From NCBI RefSeq assembly GCF_900103475.1, contig NZ_FNHG01000004.1, forward strand, positions 124,001-188,000: a DNA stretch of 64,000 nucleotides, read 5' to 3'. The translations under genes were made by a program, and so were the position numbers. This DNA comes from Maricaulis salignorans. Lineage in GTDB: Bacteria; Pseudomonadota; Alphaproteobacteria; Caulobacterales; Maricaulaceae. Positions 20,153 to 25,440 of this stretch are shown piece after piece (the first letter of the stretch is position 1; each line of letters begins with the position of its first letter). The notes beneath the pieces are model-generated. The model did not search any database. It saw only the letters and a list, made by a program, of their open reading frames with translations, and was not told the origin of the DNA.

Positions 20153-20243
20153 GTCTATCGCCTGAATTTGGCCCAGTTTCCCGGGCCTAGGATTGCAGCA
20201 GACCGGCGTGTTAGGGCAGGTCTGGATTTTGGGTGGCTATAGC

Positions 20244-22229
20244 ATGTTCAACGAGCCGTATCGCGCCGATCACATGATGGAACGCGAACAGAGACAGCGG
20301 CGCACGCTGATCATTGGTGCCAGTGTCACCGGTGCCAGCCTGCTCGGCATGCTGATTGCGGCATTGCTGGTGTGGGACTGGGCCTTTCATGATTTGCCCC
20401 CCGCGCCGGCTTCGGCGGCGGAATTATGGTCGGTGCGGCTGGAGCCTTCGGTGACGGTGCTCGACACGCATGGCGATGTGCTCGCCGTGCGCGGACCGCT
20501 CTATGCGCGCGCCATTTCGCTCGATGCCCTGCCGCCCTATCTGCCGCAGGCCTTTCTGGCGATCGAGGACCAGCGCTTTTACGAGCATGGCGGGGTGGAT
20601 TATCGCGGCGTGGCGCGGGCGCTGTGGACCAATCTGCGCGCCGGGCGCTCGGTGCAGGGCGGCTCGACCATCACCATGCAGCTGGTCAAGAATCTGATCC
20701 TGACGCCGGACCGGCTCTTGCGGCGCAAGCTGCAGGAGGTTCGTCTCGCCTGGGCGCTGGAGGAGAATCTCACCAAGACCGAAATCCTCGAGCTCTATCT
20801 CAACCGCATCTATCTCGGTGCCCGCGCCTTTGGCGTCGAGGCGGCCGCGCATCGCTATTTCTCCAAACCCGCCAGTGAGCTGACCCTGGCCGAGGCGGCG
20901 ATGCTGGCAGCCTTGCCCAAGGCGCCCTCGCGGCTGGATCCGACGGTCAATCTGGCCGCCGCCCAGGCGCGCGCCGAACAAGTGCTGGCCGCGATGCTCG
21001 AGGCCGGTTTCATCAGTGCTGAAGAGCATGGCGAGGCGATCGCCAATCCCGGCGTGCCGGTGGCCGCCAGCCTCGATCCGCAGGCCGGTCTGACTTGGGG
21101 TTATGTGTTTGACTATGCGGTGCTGGAAGCCGCCCGGCTGGTGCCCGACGACATACCCGACCTGGTGATCCGCACGACGATTGATCCGGACCTCACCCTG
21201 GCGGCACGGGAAAGCATTGCCGGCGTGCTCGATAGCGACGGCGCCGCGGTCAATGCCAGCGAGGCGGCGATTGTCCTGCTGGCGCCGGACGGGGCGATCC
21301 GCGCCTTTGCCGGCGGCCGCGATTACGGCATCAGCCAGTTCAACCGCGCCATCCAGGCCCAGCGCCAGCCCGGCTCGGCCTTCAAGCCGATCGTGTTTAC
21401 CGCGGCGCTGGAAGCCGGTTACGACCCCTCCTCGGCGGTGTGGGATGAGCCGGTCGATCTGGAAGGCTGGGAGCCGCAGAATTTCGCCGGCGGATTTCGC
21501 GGTCTGGTGACCCTGCAGGAAGCCCTGCGGCGCTCGATCAATACGGTCGCGGCCCAGGTCGCCAGTGATGTCGGGCTGGGGCGGATTGTCGAGACCGGTC
21601 ACCGGATGGGCATCCGCTCGACACTGCCGGAATTGCCAGCCATTGCGCTCGGGGCCGCCGAAGTCAATCTGCTCGAGCTGACGGCGGCCTATTCGGTCTT
21701 CCCGCGCGATGGCCAGCGCTTTGATCCCTGGTTCATCGAACGCATCACCAATTCGCGTGGCGACGTGTTGTACGAACATGCCGAGACGACGCCGGTCCGC
21801 GCGCTCGCGCCCGAGATTGCCCGGCCGATGTCCACCATGTTGCAGGATGTGGTCATATCGGGCACCGGCCGGCGTGCCATCCTGGCCGGCGGCCGCGGCG
21901 TTGGCGGCAAGACCGGCACCAGCCAGTCCTTCCGCGATGCCTGGTTCATCGGCTTCACCGCCGATTACACGGCCGGCGTCTGGGTCGGCAATGATGATGA
22001 CAGTCCGATGAGCAATGTCACCGGCGGCGGTCTGCCGGCGACGATCTGGCAGCGCTATATGACACGCGTCCACCAGGGCATTGCGGTCCACGCCCTCAGC
22101 GCCCCGGCGCCGCGCTCACGCTCGGAACGCGAGGAAAGGCTGGCCGCCTTTTATTCCGACCTGTCCGATGCTTTCGACGCATTGCTCGCCGATCCATCCT
22201 CCGGCGCCGGCGATCCCAGGGAGCGCTGA
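20244..22229 (+). CDS. Bifunctional penicillin-binding protein, class A (PBP1-type)
   Basis: 661 residues. One N-terminal membrane anchor (about residues 22-44). The glycosyltransferase 51 domain has catalytic E108 in AIEDQRFYEHGG plus the GGSTITMQLVKN motif. The transpeptidase domain has S378-x-x-K381 (RQPGSAFKP), S431-x-N433 and K556-T-G. It polymerises and cross-links peptidoglycan in the periplasm. A frame extends upstream with a TTG at 20193, but MFNEPYRADH at 20244 is the more likely start. Its last 79 bases overlap the converging channel gene. No regulatory (LpoA/B docking) domain is evident. Confidence 0.94.
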   Translation: MFNEPYRADHMMEREQRQRRTLIIGASVTGASLLGMLIAALLVWDWAFHDLPPAPASAAELWSVRLEPSVTVLDTHGDVLAVRGPLYARAISLDALPPYLPQAFLAIEDQRFYEHGGVDYRGVARALWTNLRAGRSVQGGSTITMQLVKNLILTPDRLLRRKLQEVRLAWALEENLTKTEILELYLNRIYLGARAFGVEAAAHRYFSKPASELTLAEAAMLAALPKAPSRLDPTVNLAAAQARAEQVLAAMLEAGFISAEEHGEAIANPGVPVAASLDPQAGLTWGYVFDYAVLEAARLVPDDIPDLVIRTTIDPDLTLAARESIAGVLDSDGAAVNASEAAIVLLAPDGAIRAFAGGRDYGISQFNRAIQAQRQPGSAFKPIVFTAALEAGYDPSSAVWDEPVDLEGWEPQNFAGGFRGLVTLQEALRRSINTVAAQVASDVGLGRIVETGHRMGIRSTLPELPAIALGAAEVNLLELTAAYSVFPRDGQRFDPWFIERITNSRGDVLYEHAETTPVRALAPEIARPMSTMLQDVVISGTGRRAILAGGRGVGGKTGTSQSFRDAWFIGFTADYTAGVWVGNDDDSPMSNVTGGGLPATIWQRYMTRVHQGIAVHALSAPAPRSRSEREERLAAFYSDLSDAFDALLADPSSGAGDPRER

Positions 22230-23032
22230 ACCAGAGCCGCCAGCTGCGCGATCTCACCGCGCAATCCGGCGATCTCGCTCTGCAGCTCGATCACATCCTC
22301 GCCGACCTCGGCATCGCGCTCCTCTTCCGCGTCGAAATGCTTTGACTGCAGGCTGTCGACGATGATGGCGATGAAGAGGTTGAGGATGGCGAAACTGGTC
22401 AGGACGATGAAAACCAGGAAAAACGCCCAGGCCCAGGGATGGAATTCCATCACCGGCAGCGCCAGATCCGTCGCCCAACCCTCCAGTGTCATCACCTGGA
22501 AGAGCGAGAAGGCGCTGTCCCCCAGCGTCCCGAAGCGATCCGGATTGGTCAGCGAGAAGAGTTTGGTCGCCATCACGGCGGAGACGTAAAACATCAGGGC
22601 GAGCACGGCGATCACCGCGCCCATGCCGGGAATCGCATTGAGCAGGGCTTCGATCACCTTGCGCATTTGCGGCATCACCGAGAAGAGGCGGAAGGCGCGC
22701 AGGATCCGCAAGGAGCGCAGGACCGAAAAACTGCCCGCCATCGGCACGACGGAGACCAGGATCACGACCAGGTCGAACCAGTTCCAGCCGGAGGTGAAAA
22801 AGCGCAGCCGATAGGCGATCAGTTTGAGAAAAAGCTCGACCAGGAAGACCGCGACGACAATCCGGTCAATCAAGGGCAGGATCGCGGTAAACCAGGGCGG
22901 GTCGAACGGCAGGGTGACCAGACCCAGGGTGGCGGCGTTCAGCAGGATCACCGCCATGATCGAATTTCGGAAGCCGGCGCTTTCTACAAAAGCGGTCAGC
23001 CGCGCGCGAACGCCGTGAGAAGTCGATGTCAT
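22151..23032 (-). CDS. Single-domain voltage-gated cation channel (BacNav/BacCav type)
   Basis: 293 residues with six membrane segments in one domain, so it would form a homotetramer. The S4 voltage sensor has arginines R106, R109, R112 and R115 at three-residue spacing (RSLRILRAFR). The pore filter is T182-L-E-G-W-A-T-D. After S6 (VFIVLTSFAILNLFIAIIVD) comes a C-terminal coiled coil (VIELQSEIAGLRGEIAQLAA), typical of bacterial sodium channels. The glycine after the filter glutamate replaces the serine of most bacterial sodium channels, which may shift selectivity toward calcium. The 3' end overlaps the opposing PBP gene by 79 bp. Confidence 0.93.
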   Translation of the reverse strand: MTSTSHGVRARLTAFVESAGFRNSIMAVILLNAATLGLVTLPFDPPWFTAILPLIDRIVVAVFLVELFLKLIAYRLRFFTSGWNWFDLVVILVSVVPMAGSFSVLRSLRILRAFRLFSVMPQMRKVIEALLNAIPGMGAVIAVLALMFYVSAVMATKLFSLTNPDRFGTLGDSAFSLFQVMTLEGWATDLALPVMEFHPWAWAFFLVFIVLTSFAILNLFIAIIVDSLQSKHFDAEEERDAEVGEDVIELQSEIAGLRGEIAQLAALVQRSLGSPAPEDGSASNASKASDRSE

Positions 23033-23418
23033 AGCGCCACCCGATTGCTGCCTTCTGGTAACGCCCCCGGGGGCGCTGTCAACTGTGATTTGAGCCTGTT
23101 ACCACAGCCGGGATTGATCAGCTACGGGCACAGAACCGGGCCAATTCCGTCGCTGCATAAAAAATACACCACCCCTTCGGCGAACCGCCCTCGCGCATCA
23201 CAAGCGCAAAAATTACGGCCAACTCCGCGCGAAAAATGATCTTAACCCGCTAATTTCGCGCAATCTTTTCTCGTCACGCCCCGCGACGAGCTTGAACCAT
23301 TAACGGGTCTGTCCGCGCCGGCACCGGGGCTGGCGACCCGGCCAGCAATCGCCATTAGGTGGCCCTTAACAACAAACTGTCCCTATTGAAGACCTCGAAG
23401 GGCAGGGGCTCATCCTTT
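23033..23418. other. Divergent intergenic region before the GGDEF-EAL gene
   Basis: About 385 bp between the divergent channel and diguanylate cyclase/phosphodiesterase genes, with no convincing ORF. It is AT-richer than average and contains several TTAA words (TTAACCCGC near 23232, TTAACGGG near 23298 and the pair at 23355-23369). It probably holds promoters for both genes. Confidence 0.5.
23355..23369 (+). promoter_or_regulatory. CtrA-like box, one mismatch
   Basis: TTAG-GTGGCCC-TTAA, followed by C, fits the CtrA consensus TTAA-N7-TTAA at seven of eight positions. It lies 50 bp before the preferred start of the GGDEF-EAL gene. Predicted from the motif only. Confidence 0.4.
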
Positions 23419-25440
23419 ATGGCAGGCAGGCAAACAATTCGCGGTGACCAGGTCTCCGGCGCCCCCCGGCCCGCCTCGGGCAGGATGGACCGGGAGATGG
23501 CCATCGCCTTCCGCCCGGTCGTACGCGGCTTCCTGATCGCGCTCTGTCTGTATTACAGCCTGCTCACACTATCCTATCTCATCTTCCCGCCGACCGATTA
23601 CCCCATGTGGGAATATGCCGGGATGCTGGTGCTGATCGGTGGCTCGGCCGCGGCGTCCGGCGTGATGCACCACACCAGCCGCAGGGCTTGCCGGCGCATC
23701 ATGATCGAGCTGTACAGCCTCGCGGCCAGCGCGATTGTGCTGGTCAATGTCATGGTCGTAATGGCGTTGCATTTCCAGGCCGAGAACCTGATCTACTTCA
23801 TCCTGGCGATGCCGGTTTTCGCGACAGCCTGCGTCAGCATGCGCAGCATGATCCCCAGCGTCGTTGTCACGGTTGCCACGATGATGATTTTCATCAGTAT
23901 CAAGGTTCCCGACATGCTGGTGCAGTATCTCTTCCTCGCCATGGCCGCGGGATTCGCCGCCATTGGCATGGCCACCCTGATGCGTGGCACAGTGCGCCGG
24001 GCGGTCCATGCGCGGCTCGAGGCCGATGAGAACCGGGCCCTGGCCGAAGCGCAGACATCGAAGGCCGAGACCCTCGCCCACCAGGCTCGTGAGCTGGCCG
24101 AACACGACTCGCTGACCGGTCTGGCGAACCGTTTCAGCTTCTTCAACGCCTTCGGCACCGCGCTCGCGAGCAATCGATCAGGCAGTTCGGTGACCGTGCT
24201 GGCCTTGGTCGATCTGGACGGCTTCAAACCCATTAATGACACTTATGGTCATTCCGCCGGCGACATGCTGCTCGGTTCTGTGGCGAAGCGCATCAAGGCC
24301 GCCGTCCCGCGGCGCAGCACGGTCGCGCGCCTTGGTGGCGACGAGTTTGCCATTCTGGTGCGCCGCGACCTGCTCCGGACCAGTGTCGAGCAGTTCGGCC
24401 GCGCGCTATGCGAGGCCATCGGGCAACCATACACACTCGACTCCGTCACCGCCAATCTCACCGCTTCGATTGGCCTGGTCGAGTGTGAGCACGGCACGCT
24501 GTCGATCCGGCAATTGATGGAGCGTGGCGATTACGCTCTGGACCAGGCGAAGAAGACCGCGCGCGGCGAAGCCATCCTGTTCACGCCGCGCCATGAACGC
24601 GAAATGCAGAGCATGGGCCAGGTTGACCAGGCCTTGCGTGCCGCCGATCTGGAGACAGAACTTCAGGTCTTCCTGCAACCGCAATTCGACCTCGAGCTCA
24701 ACCGGACCTACGGGTTCGAAGCCCTGGCCCGCTGGAATAGCGCCACCCTGGGACCGGTGAGTCCCGAACAGTTCATCCGCGTTGCCGAAACCTCGGGCCT
24801 GATCCGGAAAATCACCCAGATCCTGTTGCGCAAGACACTGCATCTGGTGACGAGTTGGCCGGAGCACCTCCACGTCTCCTTCAATCTGTCCGGTCATGAC
24901 CTGATGTCACCCGTCTCGGTCAGCGACATCCTCGACCTGGTCAAACAGAGCGGAATCGACCCGGCCCGTATCGAGTTCGAGATCACTGAAACGGCAATGA
25001 TGTCGGATATCGACCAGGCCCGCCGTTCGATTGAGCGCATCGCGGCCCTCGGCTGCCGACTCGCGCTCGATGATTTCGGTTCCGGCTATTCCAGCTTCAG
25101 CTATCTGCACCAATTGCCCGTCAGCAAGATCAAGATTGACCGCTCCTTCGTCGTCCCACTGTTGAAGGACGCATCGGCGAGCAAGATCATCCAGACCATC
25201 ATCAATCTGGGCCGGTCCCTCGATCTGGATTGCGTTGTCGAGGGGGTCGAATCCATCGCCGAGCTGGACATACTCAAGGGCATGCACGCGCGTTTTATCC
25301 AGGGCTATATCTTTGGCAAGCCAATGGAGGCCAAGGGCGTTCTTCCCTATCTCGCGGCCGAGGCCCGCGCCACCGACCGTCCCGCGCAAGCGGCGCCGGC
25401 CAAACTCTCCATCGTCAAACGCCCAATCCGCAAGGCCTGA
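23419..25440 (+). CDS. Membrane GGDEF-EAL protein (cyclic-di-GMP turnover)
   Basis: 673 residues from ATG 23419; a start at 23485 (MDREMAIAF) is also possible. Six membrane segments fill the first 200 residues, then a short linker helix. The GGDEF domain has the intact ARLGGDEFAIL site and the DLDGFKPINDTYGHSAGD metal/substrate motif but no RxxD inhibitory site. The EAL domain keeps FEALARW, the Asn of SFNLSGHDL, EITETAMM, DDFGSGYSSF, IKIDRSFV and the Glu of VVEGVES, so phosphodiesterase activity is plausible. It would make and/or degrade cyclic-di-GMP at the inner membrane. A CtrA-like box lies upstream, consistent with cell-cycle control. Confidence 0.94.
   Translation: MAGRQTIRGDQVSGAPRPASGRMDREMAIAFRPVVRGFLIALCLYYSLLTLSYLIFPPTDYPMWEYAGMLVLIGGSAAASGVMHHTSRRACRRIMIELYSLAASAIVLVNVMVVMALHFQAENLIYFILAMPVFATACVSMRSMIPSVVVTVATMMIFISIKVPDMLVQYLFLAMAAGFAAIGMATLMRGTVRRAVHARLEADENRALAEAQTSKAETLAHQARELAEHDSLTGLANRFSFFNAFGTALASNRSGSSVTVLALVDLDGFKPINDTYGHSAGDMLLGSVAKRIKAAVPRRSTVARLGGDEFAILVRRDLLRTSVEQFGRALCEAIGQPYTLDSVTANLTASIGLVECEHGTLSIRQLMERGDYALDQAKKTARGEAILFTPRHEREMQSMGQVDQALRAADLETELQVFLQPQFDLELNRTYGFEALARWNSATLGPVSPEQFIRVAETSGLIRKITQILLRKTLHLVTSWPEHLHVSFNLSGHDLMSPVSVSDILDLVKQSGIDPARIEFEITETAMMSDIDQARRSIERIAALGCRLALDDFGSGYSSFSYLHQLPVSKIKIDRSFVVPLLKDASASKIIQTIINLGRSLDLDCVVEGVESIAELDILKGMHARFIQGYIFGKPMEAKGVLPYLAAEARATDRPAQAAPAKLSIVKRPIRKA

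Follow-up and report, generated by a model that had tools for sequence, protein, structure and literature searches.

The channel gene and its selectivity filter

The window analyzed here is a stretch of 64,000 nucleotides from Maricaulis salignorans (contig NZ_FNHG01000004.1, positions 124,001 to 188,000), and its minus strand carries at 22151..23032 an intact gene, starting with ATG, for a one-domain voltage-gated cation channel of 293 aa (P0001). Pfam Ion_trans covers residues 21-231 (E 2.2e-42), the single such match in the host genome, and a PDB search returned NavMs (5hvx, 2.8e-66) and NavAb constructs as the best one-domain structural relatives. The top-scoring NavAb entry, 9uc3, is coincidentally the S178G mutant (PMC12919392). 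The S4 voltage-sensor stretch (22688..22717, minus strand) holds four arginines (R106, R109, R112 and R115) at the three-residue spacing of NavMs, and V247-L272 (22217..22294, minus strand) comprises four heptads with the a/d pairs V-L, I-L, I-L and V-S, a coiled coil judged from the heptad pattern only. A first-pass annotation had described an intact voltage-gated channel with four S4 arginines, a C-terminal coiled coil and a TLEGWATD filter running from T182 to D189, and each of these features was borne out, the last including its numbering. From homology we infer a homotetramer. An AlphaFold2 model built on a 13-row alignment was of low confidence (mean predicted local distance difference test score 58.6, predicted template modelling score 0.36) and too poor for use or for structure search; it placed a helix at 201-271. 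The protein contains no Cys and therefore lacks the L6 disulfide loop described for CavMr.

The selectivity filter (22466..22489, minus strand) reads T182-L-E-G-W-A-T-D189 and occupies positions 1-8 in the numbering of the CavMr paper, in which Thr is position 1; Gly4, for example, denotes glycine at position 4. Two further residues on the same strand are relevant to it: Q179 (22496..22498), aligned to NavAb Gln172, is kept, and L192 (22457..22459; position 11) is aligned to NavAb Arg185, which in NavAb holds Gln172, which in turn holds the Glu177 backbone (PMC12919392). As the first-pass annotation had pointed out, Gly follows the filter Glu. Gly at this site has been linked with selectivity for calcium, both in CavMr (PMC7041947) and, under the 'beacon' scheme, in one-domain channels (PMC10120453).

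The acidic residue is a different matter. D189 is at position 8 and T188 at position 7, whereas the CavMr filter, 183-TLEGWVD-189, has its aspartate at position 7 (PMC7041947). Human Cav3 domain I and the 'short' Gly4 filters (TLEGWAD, TLEGWPD) have one residue fewer after Trp, and when aligned by HMMER with human Cav3 domain I, D189 pairs with the Cav aspartate through a gap of one residue. Gap placement by HMMER and MAFFT thus puts the position-8 acid opposite the Asp of the short filters and Cav3, but alignment with NavMs does not, placing T188 opposite Met and D189 opposite Gly. The acid at position 7 that characterizes AnclNav and CavMr is therefore absent, although a gapped alignment could equate position 8 with it. 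The calcium-to-sodium permeability ratio (PCa/PNa) of CavMr is > 200 in the wild type, 11.9 in G4S, 7.7 in G4D and 144 in D7M (PMC7041947). Since D7M keeps so high a ratio, an analogy drawn from the acid carries little weight, and D189, which lies at position 8 rather than 7, does not serve as the CavMr-like evidence for calcium that it had been taken for.

Filter variants within Maricaulis and its family

An Ion_trans match was found in 65 of 137 genomes of the family. The channel was present in all 19 Maricaulis genomes examined, and the filter type TLEGWA[TS][DE] was kept in 19/19 distinct sequences even though whole-protein identity to the window channel is 64-72% (16 genus genomes scored). 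In the sister genus g8, TLEGWAM[DE] occurs in six of eight genomes; one of the remaining two had no match and the other only a weaker, different channel. The other genera of the family, including Oceanicaulis, Glycocaulis and Alkalicaulis, contributed 25 distinct sequences with Ser4 and Met7 (TLESWSM 24, TPESWSM 1). These Ser4 orthologs combine Ser4, Ser6, Met7, Gly8 (23/25) and Arg11, and Maricaulis has at the same sites Gly4, Ala6, Thr/Ser7, Asp/Glu8 and an uncharged residue 11. Specifically, position 11 is Arg in 25/25 Ser4 relatives and 6/6 g8 sequences and N, I, L or M in 19/19 Maricaulis sequences, some of which have an Arg three residues past it (PVR). Summed over positions 4-16, the net charge of the Ser4 group is 0 (24 sequences) or +1 (one); each of the six g8 sequences has -1, and the Maricaulis sequences have -1 (6), -2 (12) or -3 (1). 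Group-specific columns made up 5/17 of residues 182-198 versus 12/200 elsewhere (Fisher p 0.006), a count that is descriptive only, as this stretch was picked because it differed.

The three filter states share one chromosomal slot. The common gene order is a YcgN-like gene, PBP1 (convergent to the channel), the channel and DUF2336; in the window, PBP1, a bifunctional penicillin-binding protein with Transgly and Transpeptidase domains (20193..22229, plus strand), marks the orthologous position. PBP1 and YcgN adjoin the channel at 5/5 Maricaulis, 3/3 g8 and 5/6 Ser4 family loci examined, and at 0/5 other loci (four of families f2/f4 and one Maricaulaceae locus with an LFDGW channel). The sixth Ser4 locus (L111) showed neither gene, but its contig breaks off some 2.5 kb beyond the channel; at L106, L110 and L111, no DUF2336 was seen next to the channel. 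The shared slot makes the Gly4 and Ser4 channels of the family orthologs by position, and orthologs with the three filter states are about 60-67% identical.

In the window, PBP1 and the channel gene share 79 bp at their convergent 3' ends (22151-22229). By open-frame coordinates, overlaps of 55-67 bp occur at L102-L106, L108 and L110, and the genes lie apart at L107 and L109. A GGDEF-EAL gene (cyclic di-GMP) at 23359-25440 is divergent from the channel, and the same place holds one in L102-L104 (43-44% identity). It is not beside the channel at L105 or L109, which indicates insertion or loss within Maricaulis; since its position is not constant, a functional tie between it and the channel was dropped.

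Phylogeny of the channel

Trees were built with the filter columns masked (a quick tree of 134 rows and a careful tree of 90 rows, CavMr and NavPp being included in neither), and both placed Maricaulis and g8 beside the Ser4 Maricaulaceae. In the 90-row tree, the nine Maricaulis rows form a clade (support 100/99), as do the 12 rows obtained on adding g8 (99/91). These are sister to the Ser4 Maricaulaceae (nine rows, 99/97), and the resulting Maricaulaceae clade of 21 rows, nine Ser4 and 12 Gly4, is supported at 100/96; its join to the clade containing NavMs is weaker (93/86). The TLESWSM orthologs of the same locus are therefore the nearest kin beyond the Gly4 clade, and the expected association with CavMr-like channels is not supported, in a tree without CavMr. 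The first-pass annotation had named placement inside a sodium-selective clade with the same filter as counting against its reading; of these two parts, the first was found, the channel lying with sodium-type channels, but the second was not, as the filter differs.

A CavMr-type origin, which the string TLEGW suggests, was rejected by the tree, by gene order and by the approximately unbiased (AU) test, in which Maricaulis and g8 joined with the 11 short-filter Gly4 rows of the 90-row tree gave p 9.7e-10 (CavMr and NavPp absent). Another possibility considered was that the pore had recombined with that of a Gly4 channel from outside the family. Mean identity put the voltage-sensing and the pore-forming halves (filter excluded) alike closest to their own family; since their nearest kin are the same, no recombination was seen.

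Uniting the 28 full-length Gly4 rows with acid 8 in one clade was rejected by the AU test (p 2.6e-6), so this trait has changed several times, and the starred branches of the 90-row tree force at least 6 changes in it. A single origin of the TLESW-Met filter with nothing else inside is likewise ruled out: all 40 TLESW-Met rows as one clade were rejected (p 6.7e-58), a result that fits either direction of change, and outgroup rows of the order carry both Ser4 and Gly4. In the same tree, the short-filter Gly4 rows L182, L185, L186, L242, L244, L247 and L267 are scattered among TLESWSM channels, some of the forks being weak; this scatter, in a tree without CavMr, does not agree with the description of AnclNav as a single separate group (PMC7041947).

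Association of Gly4 with an acidic residue

Filters were gathered by similarity to the Maricaulis channel and by the TLEGWA pattern. Among 198 distinct full-length filters with Gly4 or Ser4, an acid stands at position 7 or 8 in 70/70 with Gly4 and 0/128 with Ser4; since the sequences are related and were gathered in this way, these counts are not independent of one another and do not amount to an unbiased census. The acid is present in 1/2 full-length Asp4 filters and in 22/26 short Gly4 filters, the exceptions being TMEGWN-G (three) and TTEGWP-T (one). The 134-row tree has the acid in 57/60 Gly4 and 0/61 Ser4 rows, with 13 changes between Gly4 and Ser4, and independent pairs on its well-supported branches were concordant in 6/6 cases for full-length filters (p 0.03) and in a mean of 5.8/6 for all rows.

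Among the other filters of this order and its class are TMDGWR[FNMG]E, TLDGWSGE, TLEGWTGD (Ciceribacter), TLEGWTDG, TLEGWSEN and LFDGWAGE. The first of these, whose ring residue is Asp and which has Gly4, Arg6 and Glu8, belongs to a large group in family f2 of the same order (L192, L193, L195, L196, L198-L204 and others). TFESWATA (L277, L278, L279, L281), a full-length filter with Ser4 and no acid, lies inside a TFEDWTD clade that is NavPp-like by its letters, and by its sequence this lineage is a possible reverse switch. Adjacent one-domain channel genes in the same orientation occur at L184 (minus strand; TLEGWAEN and TFDDWIEA) and L293 (TMEGWP-D and TTEGWP-T), with further gene pairs at G849:C62, G905:C135 and G984:C391 (filters not read). 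Paired genes with different filters could form hetero-tetramers, conceivably a step to multi-domain channels.

Predicted ion selectivity

Measurements on NavAb mutants bear most directly on what this filter may do. NavAb S178G, which introduces Gly4, has a lithium-to-sodium permeability ratio (PLi/PNa) of 2.18 and a PCa/PNa of <0.05 in Table 1 of the study, given as <0.01 in its discussion (PMC12919392). Sufficiency of Gly4 for calcium permeability is thus not supported, and for the NavAb backbone this result does not fit the 'beacon' scheme. PCa/PNa rises to 0.36 in M181A and to 0.47 in S178G-M181A, both backgrounds being <0.05; the authors' discussion credits the M181A mutants with a calcium selectivity of roughly 10-fold (PMC12919392). 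Since the table values are below 1, we read this as raised calcium permeability. S178G-M181A is the nearest measured construct, and because it admits calcium, calcium entry is likely in the Maricaulis channel.

We consider, on the evidence of its sequence, that the Maricaulis channel is probably a sodium/calcium channel of the NavAb-like sodium-channel lineage that admits calcium. Without the Ser4 side chain, the mouth would be wider and the Glu ring exposed. Without Met7 and Arg11, the network between Gln172 and Glu177, which in NavAb contributes to the monovalent selectivity of the pore, would be looser, and an acid at position 8 without Arg11 would make the outer mouth more negative. Upon depolarization, Ca2+ would then enter with Na+ at a PCa/PNa of at least about 0.3, possibly >1; by analogy with these mutants, calcium selectivity proper (PCa/PNa >1) is possible but not implied. 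Homology, absence of Arg11 and retention of the filter type in 19/19 sequences, TLESWSM orthologs in the same slot, the published mutants and the association of Gly4 with an acid all speak for this proposal, and the joint absence of Met7 and Arg11 together with Gly4 and acid 8, as read from the sequence, is a stronger calcium argument than the analogy with CavMr.

Several points weigh against it. In NavAb, Gly4 alone keeps calcium out, and S178G-M181A still remains below 1 (PMC12919392). CavMr also needs Val6, V6T lowering its calcium selectivity (PMC7041947), and position 6 is Ala in Maricaulis; nor does the Cys-free Maricaulis channel have the CavMr L6 disulfide loop (PMC10120453). No electrophysiology on this channel or a close relative was found in the literature, no test of acid 8 or of Arg11 loss was found in the accessible CavMr and NavAb literature, and the accessible text of the NavAb lithium paper does not mention G182. 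Few cells gave current with the S178A/S178G-M181A mutants (PMC12919392), and by analogy the lost stabilizing contacts could yield weak or no current.

A truly calcium-selective channel (PCa/PNa >10), i.e., a second native bacterial Cav within the sodium lineage in which acid 8 replaces the Cav/CavMr aspartate, seems unlikely. Gly4 with an acid is the pattern of CavMr and Cav3 domain I, HMMER and MAFFT place that acid opposite the Cav and short-filter aspartate across a gap, and positions 4-16 carry a net charge of -1 to -3 in each subunit versus 0 or +1 in the Ser4 relatives. However, S178G-M181A reaches only 0.47, CavMr-D7M stays selective so that the acid may not be key, the L6 loop is absent, and filter swaps between CavMr and NavAb gave no detectable current (PMC7041947), which indicates that context matters for the filter.

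It is quite unlikely that the channel is still monovalent, conducting Na+, or Li+ over Na+ like NavAb S178G, with the filter changes tuning conductance, gating or toxin resistance. The S178G ratios and common ancestry with TLESWSM channels agree with this explanation, but Maricaulis has no Met7, the loss of which raises the calcium permeability of NavAb with or without Gly4. The monovalent explanation suits g8 best, since that genus keeps Met7 and Arg11; resembling S178G plus an acid, the g8 channels may prefer lithium or sodium.

We regard as very unlikely a NavPp-like sodium channel blocked by external calcium, in which the extra acid would bind Ca2+ at the mouth and not let it pass. Sea water contains about 10 mM Ca2+, which should suffice to act on such a site in this marine genus. 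NavPp, with one more filter aspartate than CavMr, does pass Na+ and is inhibited by Ca2+, but it has Asp4, and NavPp-D4G becomes divalent-selective (PMC7041947). A decaying or non-functional channel with a relaxed filter would account for several changed filter letters in the only such channel of the genome, but is highly implausible given the open frame, the four S4 Arg, the heptads and a filter type kept throughout the genus despite the divergence of the whole protein.

A bolder proposal goes beyond calcium entry, and we advance it only tentatively. Maricaulis channels might be natively calcium-selective (PCa/PNa >1), this property having arisen in the NavAb-like lineage, independently of CavMr, through successive filter changes that extant genera still show at one locus: TLESWSMG...R, TLEGWAM[DE]...R and TLEGWA[TS][DE] without R. 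More widely, Gly4 with an acid two or three residues past the filter Trp might then be a recurrent switch of one-domain channels between sodium and calcium.

Comparison with known channels

What makes a pore prefer calcium to sodium has long been asked, and published findings on this one residue depend on the channel: in CavMr, calcium selectivity turns on Gly4, whereas in NavAb Gly4 has no calcium effect. The Maricaulis series offers a natural test between the 'beacon' scheme and the NavAb result: with one locus and three filter states at about 60-67% identity, natural swaps can test ion preference. Set beside such close relatives, the channel could reveal how the ion preference of a pore shifts, and the finding gains interest through its orthologs. 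CavMr has been called 'the only identified prokaryotic Cav' (PMC12919392, 2026); a calcium-selective Maricaulis channel would be the second native bacterial Cav. The string TLEGW led to the CavMr, NavAb and EukCat papers, and among the matches listed for TLEGWA, TMDGW, TLDGW, LEGWAT, LEGWAM and LEGWAS there was no channel paper by title or abstract. Literature on such channels in Maricaulis, Hyphomonadaceae or Alphaproteobacteria yielded nothing on this one, subscription journals lying largely outside coverage.

Among known systems, the Maricaulis channel resembles NavMs and NavAb (TLESWSM) in its sequence-predicted fold, S4, C-terminal heptads, filter length and P1-helix Gln, and TLESWSM orthologs occupy its chromosomal slot; their Ser4, Ser6, Met7, Gly8 and Arg11, however, are all replaced. 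It has the one-domain Ion_trans architecture, S4 arginines, heptads, slot and masked-filter tree grouping of a NavAb-like bacterial sodium channel (BacNav), but since its filter is TLEGWATD and not TLESWSM with Ser4 and Met7, it is a divergent variant and not a typical member. With CavMr of Meiothermus ruber (TLEGWVD), it shares TLEGW, including the Gly4 on which the calcium selectivity of CavMr depends (PMC7041947), but differs in having its acid at 8 and not 7, Ala6 and not Val6, and no cysteines for the L6 disulfide, and it does not group with the short-filter Gly4 channels in a tree from which CavMr itself was absent. The analogy with CavMr drawn in the first-pass annotation is thus half right. 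The closest measured filters found are those of NavAb S178G and S178G-M181A (LivAb), with Gly4 and a small residue for Met7; these are artificial mutants, however, and NavAb keeps Gly8 and Arg11 and has Ser6. NsvBa (TLDSWGS) is a known non-selective bacterial channel (PMC7041947). Human Cav3.1/3.2 domain I (TLEGWVD) likewise has TLEGW and then an aspartate, but belongs to a four-domain channel, and in the alignment its stretch from Trp to the following helix is shorter by one residue. Judged by these sequence comparisons, the channel gene is of a known kind, and its filter is unusual and conserved across the genus.

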